From Rhodanobacter denitrificans (GTDB taxonomy: Bacteria > Pseudomonadota > Gammaproteobacteria > Xanthomonadales > Rhodanobacteraceae): a DNA stretch of 64,000 nucleotides. The notes under the pieces are model-generated. The model was not told the DNA's origin. It did not search any database and was given only the letters and a program-made list of their open reading frames with translations. Shown piece after piece: positions 1 through 54,119 of the stretch. Location of the stretch: assembly GCF_000230695.2 (NCBI RefSeq), contig NC_020541.1, positions 1 to 64,000 on the forward strand. The letters are read 5' to 3'. How positions within the stretch are numbered: position 1 is the stretch's first letter; each line of letters begins with the position of its first letter. Made by a program: the position numbers and the translations under genes.

Positions 1-58
1 AGGTTGGAAAGTATGTGGGGTGAATGACACCACTGTCAAATGGCGGTGGAGGGCACCC

Positions 59-79
59 TGTGGATACCACTGTGGATAG
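59..79 (-). promoter_or_regulatory. Two DnaA-box-like 9-mers upstream of dnaA
   Basis: TGTGGATAC at 59-67 and TGTGGATAG at 71-79 are the complements of GTATCCACA and CTATCCACA, each one mismatch from the consensus DnaA box TTATCCACA. They lie about 90 bases before the dnaA start in the same orientation. Boxes here usually mediate DnaA autoregulation and may belong to the origin region. No clear promoter hexamers were recognised in bases 1-165. Confidence 0.7.
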
Positions 80-165
80 GTGGGCGGCCGGGGGCGTGTG
101 GGAGGCTGCTAGACTACCCCATCACCCCGCGCGCAAGCGCTCCCAAGCTGTGGTTGATCCTATCC

Positions 166-1494
166 ATGAGTGATCTGTGGCGGCGCTGCCTTGAGCGCCT
201 CGAAGGCGAGCTGAGCGCCGAAGACCTGCATACCTGGCTGATGCCGCTGCAGGCGCGCGAAGACGCCAACGGCCTGCAGTTGTTCGCGCCCAATTCCTAC
301 ACCCTGGACACCGTGCGCGGGCGCTACCTGGAACAGATCGAGGCGATGCTGCTGCAGCTTGCCGGCAAGCCGTGTCCGGTGCGGCTGGAGGTCGGTTCCA
401 GTGCGGTCCGGCCGGCACCGCCGGCGAAGGTAGCCGCGGCGCCCCGGGTCGCCATGACGGCGGCTGCCGCGTTCAGCCACAACCTCGACCCGCACTACAC
501 CTTCGAAACCTTCGTCGAGGGCAAATCCAACCAGCTCGGCAAGGCCGCCGCCATGCAGGTGGCGACCAATCCGGGCCGGGCCTACAACCCGCTGCTGCTG
601 TACGGCGGCACCGGCCTGGGCAAGACCCACCTGATGCATGCTGCCGGCAACCTGATGCGCGAACGCAACCCGGACTGCAAGGTGCTGTACCTGCGCTCGG
701 AGCAATTCGTGGGCTCGATGATCGAGGCCTTGCGCGCCAAGAGCATGGACCAGTTCAAGCAGCGCTTCCGCTCGGTCGACGCGCTGCTGATCGACGACAT
801 CCAGTTCTTCGCCGGCAAGGACACCACGCAGGAGGAGTTCTTCCACACCTTCAACGCGCTGTTCGAGTCCAAGCAGCAGATCATCCTCACCTGCGACCGC
901 TATCCGAAGGAAGTGGACAAGCTGGAGCCGCGGCTGAAGTCGCGGCTGGGCTGGGGCCTGTCGGTGGCGATCGAGCCACCGGATTTCGAGACCCGCGCGG
1001 CAATCCTGCTGTCCAAGGCGCACGAGAAGGGGGTGGCCGTGGACGAACACGTGGCGATGCTGCTGGCCAAACGCATCCGCTCCAACGTGCGCGACCTGGA
1101 GGGTGCGCTGAACACGCTGGCGGCACGGGCGAATTTCTATGGCAAGCCGATCACCACCGACTTCGCCGAGGAAACCCTGCGCGACCTGCTGGCCACGCAT
1201 GCGCAGGCGGTCACCATCCCGAACATCCAGAAGATCACCGCCGAGTACTTCAACGTGCGCCTGCAGGACCTGTTGTCCAAACGCCGCGTACGCTCGCTGG
1301 CGCGGCCGCGGCAGATCGCGATGACCTTGTCCAAGGAGCTGACCGAGCACAGCCTGCCGGAAATCGGCGAGGCGTTCGGCGGGCGCGACCACACGACCGT
1401 GATGCACGCCTGCAAGACGATCCGCAAGTTCATCGAGACGGACGCACGCATGCGCCAAGACTGGGAGCAACTGATTCGCACGCTGACCGGTTGA
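166..1494 (+). CDS. dnaA: Chromosomal replication initiator protein DnaA
   Basis: DnaA binds DnaA boxes at oriC, oligomerises with ATP and opens the duplex for helicase loading. The 442-residue product has the usual four-domain layout: an N-terminal domain (about 1-85), a variable Pro/Ala-rich linker, an AAA+ core with Walker [10 protein letters not shown] near residue 147 and Walker [10 protein letters not shown] near 207, and a C-terminal box-binding domain with [13 protein letters not shown] near 405. The frame is open from base 40, but the ATG at 166 begins [13 protein letters not shown], which matches the family N-terminus. The extra 42 codons would cover the upstream DnaA boxes, so the later start is preferred. 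It is the first gene of the dnaA-dnaN-recF-gyrB cluster. Confidence 0.97.
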
Positions 1495-1737
1495 GCGACG
1501 ATCGGCAAAGTTTATGGATAAGCGGGGGCCCAAGCTGTGGATAATGGGTGGACAGATCGGTCCTTGAAGTTATCCACAAACAGCCCACCGGCAGGCCGCC
1601 CTTTCAGGCACAATCAAGAATCATTGCAAATCATTGATAGACAAAAGAAAAACAGGTCGCGAACGTTATCCACCGGTACCACCACAACCACCAACTTCTT
1701 TTAAAGACAGAACAGCAGGTATAGGGGAAGCACAGCC
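1495..1737. other. oriC: Candidate replication origin (dnaA-dnaN intergenic)
   Basis: The 243-base gap holds a perfect DnaA box TTATCCACA at 1570-1578, a second perfect box on the other strand at 1536-1544 and a near-match TTATCCACC at 1666-1674. Between the second and third lies an A/T-rich stretch at about 1608-1655, unusual for this GC-rich window. It contains AATCATTG twice with a 10-base period (1619-1626 and 1629-1636), which resembles a duplex-unwinding element. Boxes flanking an AT-rich segment beside dnaA are the classical bacterial origin layout. Function is inferred; the dnaN promoter must also lie here. Confidence 0.7.
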
Positions 1738-2838
1738 ATGCAATTCAGCATCCAACGAGAAGCTCTGCTCAAGCCGCTGCAGCAGGTGGTTGGTGTGGTT
1801 GAACGCCGCCAGACGCTACCCGTGCTGGCCAACCTGCTGGTCCGGGTCGGCAACGGCAAGTTGTCGCTGACCGGAACCGACCTGGAAGTGGAGATGGTCG
1901 CCACCACCGAGGCGGAGAAGCTGGTCGACGGCGAGGTGACCATTCCCGCCCGCAAGCTGTTCGATATCGTGCGGGCGCTGCCCGACGGCGCCCGCATCGA
2001 GCTCAAGCTGAACGGCGACCGCGTGGCGCTCAATGCCGGGCGCAGCCGCTTCACACTGACCACCCTGCCAGCCAGCGAATTTCCCACGATCGACGAAATC
2101 GAGCTGGTCGAAAAAGTCAGCCTGCCCGAGGAAGCGTTGCGCGACCTGATGGAGCGCACCGCGTTCGCCATGGCAAACCAGGACGTGCGCTACTACTTGA
2201 ACGGCATGTTGCTGGACCTGCAGGAGCACACCTTGCGCTGCGTGGCTACCGACGGCCACCGTCTGGCGATGAAGGAAACCGAGCTGCAGAGCTCGGTCAG
2301 CGCGCGCCGGCAGATCATCATTCCACGCAAGGGCGTCAACGAACTGATCGGCCTGCTGGAAAGCGGTGACGGCCAGGTCGAACTGGAGTTCGGTCGCAAC
2401 CACCTGCGCGTACGCCGCGGCGACGTGGTGTTCACCTCCAAGCTGATTGACGGCCGCTTCCCGGACTACGAAGCGGTGATTCCGCTGGGTGCCGACAAGA
2501 CCGCCACGCTGGATCGGGAAGTGCTGCGTGGCGCCTTGCAGCGCGCGGCGATCCTGTCGAATGAGAAGTACCGCGGCGTGCGGCTGGAATTGTCGCCGGG
2601 CAAGCTGCGCATCGTGGCGCACAACCCGGAGCAGGAGGAAGCCGTGGAGGAGGTCGAGGCCGACACCCACGTGTCTGATCTGGCGGTTGGCTTCAACGTA
2701 GGCTACCTGCTCGATGCGCTGGCGGCGCTGCGCGGCGAACAGGCCCGGCTCAGCCTGCGCGACGCGCAGTCGAGCTGCCTGGTGCAGGAACACGACAACG
2801 AGCATGCCCGCCACGTGATCATGCCGCTGCGGCTCTGA
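1738..2838 (+). CDS. dnaN: DNA polymerase III beta subunit (sliding clamp)
   Basis: The product forms the dimeric ring that tethers polymerase III and many repair proteins to DNA. Its 366 residues equal the usual family length and show the three-fold repeated clamp fold. It starts MQFSIQREALLKPLQQVVGV, has the conserved TDGHRLA segment in the middle, and ends with HVIMPLRL, the typical C-terminus. The ATG at 1738 has a good AGGGGAAG ribosome site about 10 bases upstream. It follows the candidate origin and precedes recF; a strong GC hairpin at 2882-2910 separates it from the recF start. Confidence 0.98.
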   Translation: MQFSIQREALLKPLQQVVGVVERRQTLPVLANLLVRVGNGKLSLTGTDLEVEMVATTEAEKLVDGEVTIPARKLFDIVRALPDGARIELKLNGDRVALNAGRSRFTLTTLPASEFPTIDEIELVEKVSLPEEALRDLMERTAFAMANQDVRYYLNGMLLDLQEHTLRCVATDGHRLAMKETELQSSVSARRQIIIPRKGVNELIGLLESGDGQVELEFGRNHLRVRRGDVVFTSKLIDGRFPDYEAVIPLGADKTATLDREVLRGALQRAAILSNEKYRGVRLELSPGKLRIVAHNPEQEEAVEEVEADTHVSDLAVGFNVGYLLDALAALRGEQARLSLRDAQSSCLVQEHDNEHARHVIMPLRL

Positions 2839-2881
2839 CGGCCGACCGATGGCGCTCGCCACGCACGGCAAGCCATGGCAA

Positions 2882-2910
2882 CGCCGGGGCCCCCCTCAGG
2901 GACCCCGGCG
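2882..2910 (+). other. Strong GC hairpin between dnaN and recF
   Basis: CGCCGGGG at 2882-2889 is the exact complement of CCCCGGCG at 2903-2910, with further CCC/GGG pairing inside. Only a weak T-rich stretch follows, so it is not a textbook terminator. It may attenuate dnaN read-through into recF or stabilise the dnaN mRNA end. Its position also bears on the choice of recF start. Confidence 0.55.
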
Positions 2911-2934
2911 TTGCCGTTTGTGGGCGCCTTGCCC

Positions 2935-4014
2935 GTGAGGTTGCAGCAGCTTCGGATACGCGGACTGCGTTGCCTCACCGACGTCGATGCGGTGCTGGGT
3001 CCGGCTATCAATGTTTTCGTGGGCGCGAACGGCGCCGGCAAGACCAGCGTGCTGGAAGCGGCGTTCCTGCTTTCACATGCCCGCTCCTTCCGCAGCGGGG
3101 CGAAGGAGGCGCTGTTGCAGCGGGGCGCCACGCAGTTGTCGATCTTTGCCGAGTTGTGTCATGCCGACCGGCGGGTGTGCCGGCTGGGCCTGGGCCGCGC
3201 CGGAGCGGGCTGGGAGGCGAAGCTCGATGGTTCGGGCGTCCCGCTCGGGCAACTGGTGAGCGAATGCGCGGTGGTCTGCTTCGAGCCAGGGTCGCACGCC
3301 CTGATCGCCGGCGCGGCCGAGGAGCGCCGACGCTACCTGGACTGGGGTGTGTTCCACGTGGAACATGCGTTTCTGTCCTGCTGGCGCCGCTACCAGCGGG
3401 CGCTGAAACAGCGCAACAGTCTGTTGCGTTCCCTCTCGCCCCCCGGCGACGAGCTGTTTGCGCCATGGGAGGCCGAACTGGCGCAGGCTGCCGATCAAAT
3501 CGATCGGCAGCGGCGCGCCTACCTGGATCGGCTGCGCCCGCGGCTGCAGGGCAGCATCGCGGGTTTGCTGCCGGAACTGGGGGCGTTCGCGCTGCGTTAT
3601 CGCCGCGGCTGGTCGGACGAGCTGGATCTGGCCCGGCAGCTGCGCGAGCAACGGGGCAGGGACCTGGCACGCGGGCACACCACGCTCGGCGCGCATCGGG
3701 CCGACTGGTCGATCACGTTCGAACAGGCGCCACTGCGTGAGCATCTGTCCCGCGGCCAGGAGAAACTCACCGCGCTGGCCTGCCTGCTGGCCCAGGCCGA
3801 ACTGTATGCCGAGCATCGCGGGGAATGGCCCATCGTCTGCCTGGACGATCTCGCCTCCGAACTGGATCAGGCGCACCAGCTTGCGGTGGTGACGCTGCTG
3901 CGGGCGGCCGACGCCCAAGTCCTGCTGACCGGCACTGAGCTGCCGGCCGCGCTGCAGGGACTCCCTGCCTGCGTGTTCCACGTGGAACAAGGCAGGCTGG
4001 CGCGCCTGCTATAA
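2935..4014 (+). CDS. recF: DNA replication/repair protein RecF
   Basis: RecF is an SMC-like ATPase that loads RecA at single-strand gaps with RecO and RecR. The Walker A motif GANGAGKTS sits near residue 31, and the C-terminal part carries the ABC signature LSRGQEKL and Walker B segment VCLDDLASELD. The GTG at 2935 gives 359 residues starting VRLQQLRIRGLRCL, which matches the family N-terminus and length. An in-frame ATG at 2875 would add 20 low-complexity residues encoded by the hairpin at 2882-2910 and is less likely. The gene contains two perfect parS palindromes, read as FHVEH and FHVEQ. Its stop TAA overlaps the gyrB -10 element. Confidence 0.93.
   Translation: MRLQQLRIRGLRCLTDVDAVLGPAINVFVGANGAGKTSVLEAAFLLSHARSFRSGAKEALLQRGATQLSIFAELCHADRRVCRLGLGRAGAGWEAKLDGSGVPLGQLVSECAVVCFEPGSHALIAGAAEERRRYLDWGVFHVEHAFLSCWRRYQRALKQRNSLLRSLSPPGDELFAPWEAELAQAADQIDRQRRAYLDRLRPRLQGSIAGLLPELGAFALRYRRGWSDELDLARQLREQRGRDLARGHTTLGAHRADWSITFEQAPLREHLSRGQEKLTALACLLAQAELYAEHRGEWPIVCLDDLASELDQAHQLAVVTLLRAADAQVLLTGTELPAALQGLPACVFHVEQGRLARLL
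3350..3365. promoter_or_regulatory. parS: parS centromere-like site 1 (inside recF)
   Basis: TGTTCCACGTGGAACA is a perfect 16-base palindrome and matches the conserved bacterial ParB-binding parS consensus (TGTTNCACGTGNAACA type). It lies inside the recF coding sequence, about 1.7 kb from the candidate origin. ParB loaded here would spread and recruit condensin and ParA for chromosome segregation. parAB is not in this window. Confidence 0.92.
3974..3989. promoter_or_regulatory. parS: parS centromere-like site 2 (3' end of recF)
   Basis: This is a second copy of exactly the same 16-base palindrome, TGTTCCACGTGGAACA, 624 bases downstream of the first and still within recF. It ends 17 bases before the TGC of the extended -10 element of the putative gyrB promoter, so ParB bound here would sit over the -35 region. 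Two identical 16-mers within one gene near the origin would not be expected by chance. Confidence 0.92.
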
Positions 4015-4015
4015 T
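4007..4015 (+). promoter_or_regulatory. Probable gyrB promoter (extended -10)
   Basis: TGCTATAAT is a perfect extended -10 element (TGnTATAAT). It overlaps the recF stop codon TAA at 4012-4014 and lies about 94 bases before the gyrB ATG. No good -35 hexamer is present at the expected distance, as is common for extended -10 promoters. That region is occupied by parS site 2. Confidence 0.6.
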
Positions 4016-4045
4016 CAAAAGGTTGCATCTCCCGGGATTGCATAA

Positions 4046-6541
<2,496 letters not shown>

Positions 6542-6554
6542 AACAGCTTGCGCT

Positions 6555-6594
6555 GGCATGCCGGCCGGCGCCAGGCGTCGGCCAGCGGCATGCC
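6555..6594 (+). terminator. Hairpin downstream of gyrB
   Basis: GGCATGCCG at 6555-6563 pairs exactly with CGGCATGCC at 6586-6594, with extra GCC/GGC pairing inside. It lies 13 bases after the gyrB stop. No T-run follows, so it may be a weak or Rho-assisted terminator, or a 3'-end stabiliser. Confidence 0.4.
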
Positions 6595-6745
6595 CATTGG
6601 GCGCCTTGCCGCGTGGTGCGGCGCCAAGCAATTGATTTTCAACAGGCTTTGATGCGGCAGTGCAACTTGTTATCCCGTGCCGGGTCGAGTTACGCTCCGC
6701 AATCCCCCGCGTCATCACGACACGCCCAGACATTAGAGGATCACC

Positions 6746-8035
6746 ATGAAGCATGCCCGAGGGTTAACCATGCTGGCCGGCATTGCGCTGCTGCTGGGCG
6801 TGGCCAGCAGCCCGGCACTGGCGCGCAAGAGCGACGACGCCAAACCCAAGAAGGAAGTGCTGTATCCGAACGCGACGCGCGTTGAGCCGAAGCTCGACCT
6901 GAGCAGCGTGAAGGATCAGAAGAACCTCAACGACGGCCTGGATGCGGTCAACGAGGGCGACAAGGCCAAGGCCGAGCAACTGCTGCAGCCGATCATCGAC
7001 GGCAGCAAGAGCAAGTACGCCCAGGCGCTCGCCCTGCAGGGCATGGCCAGCCTCCACTACAACGACGGCGACACCAAGGGCGCGATCGCCGCGCTGCAGC
7101 GCTCGCTGGCGCTTGGCGTGATGCCGAATGACACCTACTTCCAGTTGATGTACATGCTGGCGCAGTTCCAGCTGGCCGACGAGCAGTACCAGGCCGCGCT
7201 GGACACGATCGCCAAGTGGCGCGCCGAAGGCAAGAAGGAAACCGCCGATTCGTACGCGCTCGAAGGCAATGCCGACTATCGGCTCGGCAAATATCCCGAG
7301 GCGATCGCCGCCATCACCAAGGCCAAGTCGCTGACCGACAAGCCGCAGCCGACCTGGGACCAGATCCTGATGGCCAGCTACGCCGAATCCGGCCAGGACG
7401 ACAAGGCAGCCGCACTGGCTACCAGCCAGCTCAGTTCCAATCCGGACGACCCGAACGTGCTCAACAACGCGGTCGCCGTGCTGATGCAGGCGCACAAGTA
7501 CCCCGAAGCGATCCAGATGCTGGAAAAGGCCCGCGCCGCCGGCAAGCTCGGCAAGGACACCCAGTATGTGAACCTGGCCAAGCTGTACCTGATCAGCGGC
7601 CAGGACAGTTCCGATCCTGCGCCGAACGCGCTCAAGGCCCAGCAGGTGCTTGAGGACGGTATCGGCAAGGGCGTGCTCAAACCCGACGCGGAAACCTACG
7701 TGCTGCTCGGCCAGTCCGCCGAGATCGGCAACAACATCGACAAGGCGATCGGCTATTACAACAAGGCCATCCCGCTGGCCAGCAACGGTGAGGCCGCGCT
7801 GCGCGCAGGACGCCTGCTGCTGAGCGAGAACAAGTACAGCCAGGCCAAGGGCCTGGTCCAGCAGGCGATCGACAAGGGCGTGCAGCACAAGGGTACGGCG
7901 TACATGCTGCTGGCCGAGTCCGAGCGTGGCTTGAAGAACAAGCCGGCGGCGATCGCCGCGATGAAGAAGGCCGCACAGGATCCGGAGACGGCGGCGAAGG
8001 CAAGGGACTGGCTGAAAAAGACCGGCGCCGAGTGA
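6746..8035 (+). CDS. Exported tetratricopeptide-repeat protein
   Basis: The 429-residue protein begins with a clear Sec signal peptide (MKHARGLTMLAGIALLLG, cleavage probably after ALA near residue 26). The mature part is almost entirely helical TPR-like repeats of about 34 residues, for example around ALALQGMASLHYNDGDTKGA and GRLLLSENKYSQAKGLVQQA. TPRs mediate protein-protein contacts, here in the periplasm. The gene sits just upstream of tonB-exbB-exbD on the same strand, an arrangement common in Xanthomonadales, so a link to TonB-dependent transport or envelope assembly is plausible but not shown. An AGAGGAT ribosome site precedes the ATG. Confidence 0.85.
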   Translation: MKHARGLTMLAGIALLLGVASSPALARKSDDAKPKKEVLYPNATRVEPKLDLSSVKDQKNLNDGLDAVNEGDKAKAEQLLQPIIDGSKSKYAQALALQGMASLHYNDGDTKGAIAALQRSLALGVMPNDTYFQLMYMLAQFQLADEQYQAALDTIAKWRAEGKKETADSYALEGNADYRLGKYPEAIAAITKAKSLTDKPQPTWDQILMASYAESGQDDKAAALATSQLSSNPDDPNVLNNAVAVLMQAHKYPEAIQMLEKARAAGKLGKDTQYVNLAKLYLISGQDSSDPAPNALKAQQVLEDGIGKGVLKPDAETYVLLGQSAEIGNNIDKAIGYYNKAIPLASNGEAALRAGRLLLSENKYSQAKGLVQQAIDKGVQHKGTAYMLLAESERGLKNKPAAIAAMKKAAQDPETAAKARDWLKKTGAE

Positions 8036-51844: not shown

Positions 51845-52933
<1,089 letters not shown>

Positions 52934-52953: not shown

Positions 52954-53057
52954 GAAGTGCGATTCCTGCCTGCGCAGGAATGACGATGGTGTGGGTGATG
53001 AGCGGGCGTGGACCTTTTTTCCCTTTGTCATTCCTGCGAACGCAGGAATCGCACTTC
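52954..53057. repeat. Paired-palindrome element, upstream copy (units A and B)
   Basis: Unit A (52954-52984) reads GAAGTGCG then ATTCCTGCCTGCGCAGGAAT then GAC. Unit B (53027-53057) is the inverted form, GTC then ATTCCTGCGAACGCAGGAAT then CGCACTTC. Each unit is itself a hairpin. The 42-base interval contains GGGCGTGGA, shared with the downstream copy. Unit B ends 16 bases before the GIY-YIG start codon. Confidence 0.85.
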
Positions 53058-53073
53058 AATGCGAGGTATAGCC

Positions 53074-53367
53074 ATGGACAGGCGACAACCCTGCGTCTAC
53101 ATGCTGGCGAGCAAGAAGAACGGCGTTCTCTACATCGGCGTAACCAGCGACCTGGCCAAGCGCATCTGGCAACACAGGAACGACGTGGTGGAGGGTTATA
53201 CCCATCGTTACAGCGTGCATACGCTGGTGTGGTACGAACTTCATCTCACCATGGAATCGGCGATCCTGCGCGAGAAAACGCTCAAGGCCTGGAAGCGCGA
53301 CTGGAAGATGCGGTTGATCAACGAAGGCAATGCCGAGTGGCGGGACTTGTATCCGACTATCCTGTAA
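53074..53367 (+). CDS. GIY-YIG nuclease-superfamily protein
   Basis: The 97-residue protein is a stand-alone GIY-YIG domain. It has CVYMLASKKNGVLYIGVTSD (the GIY..YIG pair as VYM..YIG), the catalytic-type Arg in LAKRIWQHRNDVVEG, the conserved YTHRYSVHTLVWYE, and the metal-binding Glu region AILREKTLKAWKRDWK. Size and pattern fit the YhbQ/UPF0213-like group. The gene is bracketed tightly by two related paired-palindrome elements (B ends 16 bases before the ATG; C begins 5 bases after the stop). It is an isolated gene, and the arrangement suggests a mobile or palindrome-associated unit. Confidence 0.92.
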   Translation: MDRRQPCVYMLASKKNGVLYIGVTSDLAKRIWQHRNDVVEGYTHRYSVHTLVWYELHLTMESAILREKTLKAWKRDWKMRLINEGNAEWRDLYPTIL

Positions 53368-53372
53368 CTGTC

Positions 53373-53462
53373 GAAGTGCGATGTCTGCCTGCGCAGGCAT
53401 GACGGGCGTGGAGGACGCCATATTTCTCCGCCGTCATGCCTGCGCAGGCAGGCATCGCATTC
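53373..53462. repeat. Paired-palindrome element, downstream copy (units C and D)
   Basis: Unit C (53373-53403) reads GAAGTGCG then ATGTCTGCCTGCGCAGGCAT then GAC. Unit D (53433-53462) is inverted, GTC then ATGCCTGCGCAGGCAGGCAT then CGCATTC. Core bases differ from the upstream copy (TTCC changed to GTC or TGCC), but the outer GAAGTGCG and GTC edges are kept and the interval again contains GGGCGTGGA. Confidence 0.85.
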
Positions 53463-53495: not shown

Positions 53496-54119
53496 ATGCA
53501 CCTGCGCAGCGACAGTTTCGACAACGGCCAACCGATTCCCGCCGAGTTCGCCTTCGGCCAGCGCGGCGACCCGGTCGCGCTGTCGGACAACCGCAGCCCG
53601 CACCTGGCCTGGCAGAACGCGCCGTCCGCCACCCGCTCGTTCGTGCTCACCTGCATCGACCCCGACGTGCCCAGTCGCGGCGACGACGTGAACCAGCCCG
53701 GTCGCACGGTGCCCGCCGACTTGCCGCGGGTGGAGTTCGTGCACTGGCTGATGGCGAACATCCCTGCCGAGTGCGGCGAACTGGCCGCGGGCGCGTGCAG
53801 CGACGGCATCACCGCGCGCGGCAAGCGCGCGCCGTTCGGGCCGCCGGGCAGCGTGCAGGGCGTCAACGACTACACCGGCTGGTTCGCCGGCGACGCCGAG
53901 ATGGGCGGCGAGTACCGCGGCTACGACGGCCCGTGCCCACCGTGGAACGACGCACGGCTGCACCATTACCACTTCAAGCTGCACGCGCTCGACGTGGCCG
54001 CGCTGCCGCTGGCCGGCGGCTTCTCGCTGGCCGAGCTGCGCGCGGCGATGGCCGGCCACGTGCTGGCCGAGGCGGAGCTGGTCGGCAGCTACAGCCTGAA
54101 CCCGGCGGTTGCCGGCTGA
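53496..54119 (+). CDS. YbhB/YbcL-family (Raf-kinase-inhibitor-like) protein
   Basis: The 207-residue protein carries the PEBP fold signatures: SPHLAWQNAPSATRSFVLTC with the DPDVP phosphate-site residues, VHWLMANIPA, and YDGPCPPWNDARLHHYHFKL with its conserved His. Bacterial PEBPs have no settled function, and ligand or protein binding is assumed. The ATG follows GGAGA. It leads the plus-strand group of envelope-stress-type genes but is separated by 171 bases from the next. Confidence 0.92.
   Translation: MHLRSDSFDNGQPIPAEFAFGQRGDPVALSDNRSPHLAWQNAPSATRSFVLTCIDPDVPSRGDDVNQPGRTVPADLPRVEFVHWLMANIPAECGELAAGACSDGITARGKRAPFGPPGSVQGVNDYTGWFAGDAEMGGEYRGYDGPCPPWNDARLHHYHFKLHALDVAALPLAGGFSLAELRAAMAGHVLAEAELVGSYSLNPAVAG

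Follow-up and report, generated by a model that had tools for sequence, protein, structure and literature searches.

GIY-YIG enzymes hydrolyse DNA; they are not known to form a covalent link with it or to have a strand-transfer step. One such family, the Ssn nucleases of Neisseria, is said to have been described in 2025 and reportedly consists of single-strand- and site-specific nucleases that act on neisserial repeats and modulate transformation. In a 2013 survey by Di Nocera et al., repetitive extragenic palindromes (REPs) of the CGTC-1 class, which includes the neisserial dRS3, are described as having a CGTC or TGTC tag, an 8-bp stem that starts with AT, a 4-nt loop and an unpaired tail, CCA in most units, and as frequently forming inverted pairs (PMC3733652). 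The dRS3 pattern itself, ATTCCC(N8)GGGAAT, is put at almost 700 copies in the meningococcal genome (PMC3898611). The survey reports no dedicated transposase for CGTC REPs and leaves open whether they have an enzyme of their own, and which (PMC3733652). REPs with a GTAG tag are paired with RAYTs, which are IS200-like HUH tyrosine transposases. RAYT genes occur in single copy, pass down vertically and replicate REPINs at a very low rate (PMC8049555).

Here we analyse a small GIY-YIG gene of Rhodanobacter denitrificans and the palindromes around it. The window, i.e. the whole stretch of DNA analysed (64,000 nucleotides), is the first 64 kb of a genome of 4,225,490 bases in one contig, and its nearest named proteins come from Rhodanobacter. 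With a probability of roughly 0.8, judged from sequence comparison, the gene encodes a stand-alone nuclease of the Ssn type and the palindromes are its cognate CGTC-1-type REPs, distinguished by a lineage-specific tail. More tentatively, and with the balance tilted somewhat against it, Ssn-type GIY-YIG enzymes may be the missing enzymes of CGTC REPs bacteria-wide, a second REP-enzyme system of separate origin from the RAYTs, maintaining and multiplying their sites through single-strand cuts and host repair while paralogues keep their REP sets separate by the tail. A candidate for the enzyme left open by the survey (PMC3733652) can in this way be named for many lineages. Among the matches listed by a literature search, none linked a GIY-YIG enzyme to REP, dRS3 or CGTC repeats, a result that describes those matches and not the printed literature in general.

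The nuclease gene and its four REP units

The sequence-only reading had placed a GIY-YIG gene between two pairs of inverted hairpin units, with 16 and 5 bases separating it from the inner units, and the coordinates confirm both the layout and the gaps (Table 1). The upstream reading frame stops at 52933. Units and gene follow the order "- + gene - +", in which the outer tails point away from the gene and the CGTC tags of each pair stand face to face. By eye, dnaA-like and gyrB-like frames open the window (positions 1-7000), which puts the cassette some 53 kb away from the probable origin of replication.

Table 1. Coordinates of the REP units, the nuclease gene and its downstream neighbour in the window
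Feature	Position	Strand	Details
REP unit 1, CGTC-1	52954..52985	-	left pair, outer; CGTC + stem ATTCCTGC/GCAGGAAT + loop GCAG + tail CGCACTTC; tail away from gene
Left-pair spacer	52986..53025		contains GGGCGTGGA at 53004-53012
REP unit 2	53026..53057	+	left pair, inner; TGTC tag, loop GAAC, tail CGCACTTC toward gene
GIY-YIG nuclease gene, clade A, 97 aa	53074..53367	+	PF01541, E 3.8e-16; ATG 53074, TAA 53367
REP unit 3	53373..53404	-	right pair, inner; CGTC tag, tail CGCACTTC toward gene, one stem mismatch
REP unit 4	53432..53462	+	right pair, outer; CGTC tag, tail CGCATTC outward
YbhB/YbcL family gene (PF01161)	53496..54119	+	downstream neighbour; marker for locating the A site in gene-less species

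Two details of the earlier description held in part. The units had been given identical edges: GTC is indeed inside, and unit 4 has GAATGCG instead of GAAGTGCG as its outer edge. A shared GGGCGTGGA had also been noted, and it is present on both sides (53004-53012 and 53404-53412) but absent from the spacers read at orthologous loci. GCGTGGA occurs in no unit spacer read at 11 such loci (L039 yielded no spacer) and in 12 of 152 spacers elsewhere. The motif was for this reason rejected as a functional element and given no weight.

Each unit is built of GTC, an 8-bp stem, a 4-nt loop and a tail, and reads (C/T)GTC + AT-N-CC-N-GC stem + 4-nt loop + tail. Allowing up to 3 mismatches, the pattern has 7 strand matches in the window, all at the four units, against 0.71 expected, and no shuffled version of the window out of 100 reached that number. 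Folded as single-stranded DNA, the two pairs gave z = -8.1 and -11.2. All four units have the CGTC or TGTC tag, the 8-bp stem with AT at positions 1-2 and the 4-nt loop of CGTC-1, and the inverted pairs are a further likeness to CGTC-1 and dRS3 as presented in the survey (PMC3733652). Dispersed copies are found as well, 42 matches to the unit pattern being listed in the genome (at most 1 mismatch, one site counted on both strands) against 0 for the reversed pattern. The locus differs from the described repeats in having a GIY-YIG gene as a regular neighbour, in its low copy number (about 40, both tails) and in the tail, which is CGC in 4/4 units of the window and CCAG in those of the paralogue described below. 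We regard CGC as the mark of a variant of CGTC-1, because the survey gives CCA for "most" units, not for all (PMC3733652). The palindromes, which the sequence-only reading had assigned to no named system, already have names, CGTC REPs and dRS3. An Rfam scan of the window gave no match at gathering score.

The protein is a stand-alone GIY-YIG domain with intact catalytic residues and a predicted fold of high confidence (pLDDT 93.8). In 38 aligned sequences G22, R30, H34, E55, R66, E67, K71, N86, W89 and D91 are invariant, and Y9 and Y20 nearly so. The domain search returned PF01541 only and no HUH tyrosine transposase domain; since this domain is lacking and the tag is a different one, the nuclease is not a RAYT. 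Defence-system and phage-family scans gave weak partial matches only. None of 50,697 phage records matched the nuclease at E 1e-5, and 18 homologue loci sit in viral contigs; the gene is therefore taken as not mainly a phage gene, and phage origin was set aside as its main source.

A N. gonorrhoeae record contains an unannotated frame that is 63% identical, lies beside dRS3-type units and may correspond to the published Ssn. That system reportedly has in common with the present one a stand-alone GIY-YIG protein of about 100 aa and cognate palindromic repeats, both next to the gene and at other places in the genome. The present system belongs to another organism, has the tail CGCACTTC instead of one of the CCA type, and includes two tail-specific paralogues in one genome whose cleavage activity is predicted.

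Recurrence of the palindromes at the gene and conservation of the hairpin

That similar palindromes recur near small GIY-YIG genes had been suggested from the sequence, and the suggestion proved correct: CGTC-type palindromes accompany the enzyme subfamily in genomes of different phyla. Among 31 loci in relatives, 30 (29 of them by script) carry a CGTC-type unit no farther than 300 bp from the gene, and at 27 the gene is flanked on either side. The unit of L043 was placed by hand, a contig edge having shifted the coordinates, and L052 is two-sided by way of a degenerate unit; at L058 no CGTC-type unit was found within 300 bp. Further subfamily loci in relatives showed a strict unit within 450 bp in 21 of 29 cases (L116 and L057 being one gene). 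Reading by eye showed inverted palindromes of longer or variant form, mostly with CGTC edges, at six of the eight strict misses (L080, L083, L085, L086, L087 and L099), and none near the gene at the other two, L090 and L091, whose similarity (38-40%) is close to the border of the control set.

For named genomes, spanning many phyla, the best 80 of 588 confirmed loci were analysed. A GTC-tagged hairpin lies within 300 bp at 66 of these 80 loci, on both sides at 39. Hairpin density per kb is 6.51, 1.88 and 0.46 in the first three 100-bp steps from the gene, 0.10 at 1-1.5 kb and 0.16 at 1.5-2.5 kb. The 139 hairpins near the gene have C (107), T (27) or A (5) before GTC, and 129 have the tail CCA; at the 39 two-sided loci the nearest units are arranged as "+ gene -" (25), "- gene +" (7) or in the same direction (7). 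Degenerate or variant units, or parts of units, were seen by eye at the 14 strict misses and not scored as matches; L133, counted as a strict match, has an odd hairpin. As a control set we took the 11 GIY-YIG-like matches of lowest similarity (29-43% identity, with E values no better than 1.8e-7), set apart by similarity alone, and no palindrome of the few classes covered by the detection was found at any of the 11. If these genes and the far flanks are fair controls, such palindromes are not equally common at unrelated genes, and the equal frequency that the sequence-only reading had named as refuting its proposal was not seen.

Stem pairing is maintained through paired changes. When units were collected by the pattern [C/T]GTC(N20)C[C/T]A, which ignores pairing, at least 7 of 8 stem pairs were formed in 125 of 146 units within 250 bp of the gene and in 31 of 158 at distances of 700 bp and above. 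In a set reduced to a single unit per locus, stem positions 3 and 6 were paired in 63/68 and 61/68; among the 60 units with at least 6 of 8 pairs, the figures were 59/60 and 60/60, where shuffling gave 25.6 and 34.4 on average and 37 and 43 at most. The hairpin itself is conserved, since these two positions vary and yet stay paired. Loop class follows the protein tree with 6 changes (shuffled mean 14; none of 500 shuffles as low), a tree of 97 columns in which most forks are unresolved.

Two paralogues, two tails and their chromosomal sites

The genome holds a second gene of the subfamily, paralogue B (64% identical; C1:3834169-3834453), between nrdA and nrdB, with CCAG-tail CGTC REPs on both sides, a "+ -" pair on one and one unit or more on the other. 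The two paralogues of this genome are each found among REPs with their own tail, and the two tail-coded REP sets act as mutual controls. The tails begin with CGC at 12 of 12 clade A loci, where every complete pair detected has the order "- +"; at clade B loci they are mostly CCAG and the order is mostly "+ -".

Across the genus, the REP number of each tail follows the matching gene. One-sided tests that ignore phylogeny were applied to the 38 of 45 genomes that are at least 90% complete. All 13 genomes with gene A (in one a contig-end fragment) have at least 6 CGC-tail REPs, as do 4 of the 25 without it; G018 and G040 carry 19 and 12 such REPs, respectively, and no gene A. After subtraction of the four at the gene, CGC-tail REPs were associated with gene A (p=3.9e-6) and, likewise less four, CCAG-tail REPs with gene B (p=2.3e-4), and the cross terms between each tail and the non-matching gene gave p=0.72 and 0.87. 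Phylogenetically independent pairs on supported branches number 3, too few for significance; REPs moved with the gene in 1 to 3 of them, depending on pairing and threshold, and against it in none. Outside the genus, two of 55 relatives have CGC-tail REPs (1 and 8 copies). In a phylum-wide survey of 299 genomes, in which one palindrome class (CGTC-1) was searched and counts were transcribed by hand, 38 had both gene and REPs, 54 the gene only, 16 REPs only and 191 neither (p=2.7e-11). At least 5 CGTC-1 REPs were present in 54 genomes, 16 of them with no detected gene and one of these with 154 REPs; of the 92 gene-bearing genomes, 54 had fewer than 5 REPs of this single class.

Both genes are tied to particular sites. 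Clade A loci occupy one chromosomal site in 12 of 12 cases, and the nrdA-nrdB site is common to 13 clade B loci (the present one and 12 in relatives, four of which belong to other genera; L043 shows one flank only), while six other loci of the comparison stand elsewhere. The empty sites that the sequence-only reading had advised looking for exist. The A site was read in 18 gene-less species, two more having no YbhB match, and was not judged in G001, G006 and G028, where the upstream neighbour differs (in G028 a CGTC unit is present at this place). Among the 15 judged, 7 have a REP that is solo or decayed (by the strict pattern in G007, G018 and G042; by eye in G014, G021, G032 and G033) and 8 have none. 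Inspection by eye of the empty A site, of nrdA-nrdB and of two REP-dimer sites showed no target duplications, which had been proposed along with the empty sites. On the midpoint-rooted YbhB tree, species with gene, solo REP or neither are interleaved (9 changes if the three unjudged species are scored as having neither), and gene presence takes 7 changes, at least 3 of them on supported branches; G004, G012 and G024 form a separate group that has neither gene A nor CGC-tail REPs. One gain with repeated loss and repeated gain at one site both fit this history. Overall, the cassette is probably inherited vertically, for the most part, at a fixed site and often lost, its REPs decaying afterwards.

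At nrdA-nrdB, no REP-type unit was found in 24 of 25 readable gene-less species (G040 was not readable), and the cassette therefore behaves as a unit; G033 retains a leftover REP pair, and G048, one of the 24, has a long-loop CGTC-edged palindrome. From species to species the gap (L239-L263) varies: it may contain small unrelated reading frames, of which two kinds recur by eye, or other palindromes, or be empty.

Species also differ in the REP pairs that they have at two orthologous sites, one apparently inside a coding linker and the other the next intergenic site, and G012, which has gene B and no gene A, has a CCAG-tail pair where the present genome has a CGC-tail pair. Close pairs in this genome are "+-" in five cases (one beside gene B), "++" in four (one a tandem array) and "-+" in two (both at gene A); 28 of 32 pairs hand-picked from listings of relatives are "+-".

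Possible roles of the nuclease and further repeats

On the reading that we favour, a REP would fold when its DNA becomes single-stranded, as at a replication fork, during repair or on import, and the nuclease would recognise the unit by its CGTC tag, hairpin and tail and cut one strand at or near the hairpin. Host repair or recombination would have to follow the cut, because GIY-YIG enzymes hydrolyse DNA and are not known to form a covalent link with it; such repair could carry REP copies from one site to another, or delete the cassette and leave a solo REP. The first interpretation, in which the nuclease may recognise or spread the palindromes, is partly supported: by the RAYT-like layout, by the specific co-occurrence of the palindromes with this GIY-YIG subfamily, and by copy numbers that follow the gene. 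By analogy, the system is best read as working like a RAYT/REPIN pair: common to both are a chromosomal enzyme gene bracketed by REPs of a dispersed family, matched REPs elsewhere, dimeric dispersed copies and (here probably) mostly vertical inheritance. It differs in having a GIY-YIG enzyme in place of an HUH/Tyr one and a CGTC in place of a GTAG tag, in lacking any known strand transfer, and in that its sites are fixed and it is repeatedly absent.

That intergenic REPs simply accumulate beside any small gene is very improbable. CGTC and GTAG REPs do lie predominantly between genes, according to the survey (PMC3733652), but none of the 11 control genes has a palindrome, the two paralogues match their own tails, and hairpin density falls 40- to 65-fold off the gene, a value partly inflated by far flanks that are mostly coding, an effect that touches the GIY-YIG-like controls less. 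Passive co-location is disfavoured on the strength of this drop and these controls. A possible but somewhat doubtful alternative makes the nuclease the dispersal enzyme of CGTC REPs, a RAYT counterpart with "+ -" dimers as non-autonomous and "+ gene -" as autonomous elements. The prevalence of the latter arrangement at two-sided loci (25/39, within the best 80 of 588) and of "+-" pairs, the dimers that vary between species, among them the CCAG pair of G012 at the place of a CGC pair, and the REP numbers that follow the gene within the genus would all suit it; it sits less well with fixed gene sites, with GIY-YIG chemistry and with the sites read by eye, at which neither a clean insertion with defined ends nor a target duplication was found. 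Moreover, repeats of unrelated kinds also occur in the variable linker at the first dimer site, and CGC-tail units stand at the second in G018, a genome without gene A.

Unlikely, in our judgement, is a homing-like selfish gene that cuts bare-REP alleles and is installed by repair from the gene-bearing allele. The single sites of 12/12 clade A and 13 clade B loci, the solo or decayed REPs at 7 of 15 readable empty A sites and the 7 changes that gene presence requires on the YbhB tree (3 or more of them on supported branches) could be so explained, but vertical descent with repeated loss accounts for the same data, and nrdA-nrdB offers nothing of REP type to cut in 24 of 25 readable gene-less genomes. 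In contrast to I-TevI-type GIY-YIG homing endonucleases, the 97-aa protein has no further domain match, no intron or intein was seen, and the gene does not interrupt its site: if the palindromes are taken as the sites, the cassette leaves them complete on both sides. A main role in the control of DNA uptake or recombination, with incoming single strands cut at REPs as reported for neisserial Ssn, is conceivable, though we lean slightly away from it. The 63%-identical gonococcal frame adjoining dRS3-type repeats speaks for this role, which would account for the sites but not for the place of the gene among them; it is compatible with the cognate nuclease-REP pair that we favour and does not exclude it. 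Should REP numbers prove to be sustained by the enzyme, this large class of palindromes, so far of obscure role, would become a live enzyme-substrate system.

Some further repeats were noted. At the first dimer site (L028:480-600; G000:C1:2709789-2709896) the REP dimer apparently lies inside the linker of a large frame, mutase-like by eye, and other repeat families occupy this linker in other species. A palindrome of the form CGTCATTGCGAG...GCAATCC adjoins nuclease homologues at L083, L086, L168, L178, L202 and L207, and the link between nuclease and palindromes may extend beyond the four described CGTC families. Spacers of B-type dimers at L045, L047-L051 and L054 have longer complementary edges, e.g. 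CCAGTGnCT ... AAGTCACTGG, which suggests that the functional tail of these units could be longer than four bases. Finally, at L026 (G000:C1:1193257-1193598) five CGC-tail REPs follow one another in the same direction, with a period of about 79 bp, and another unit lies about 1.7 kb away; nearby are long G+C-rich stretches that by eye look like an inverted repeat around a small coding region.
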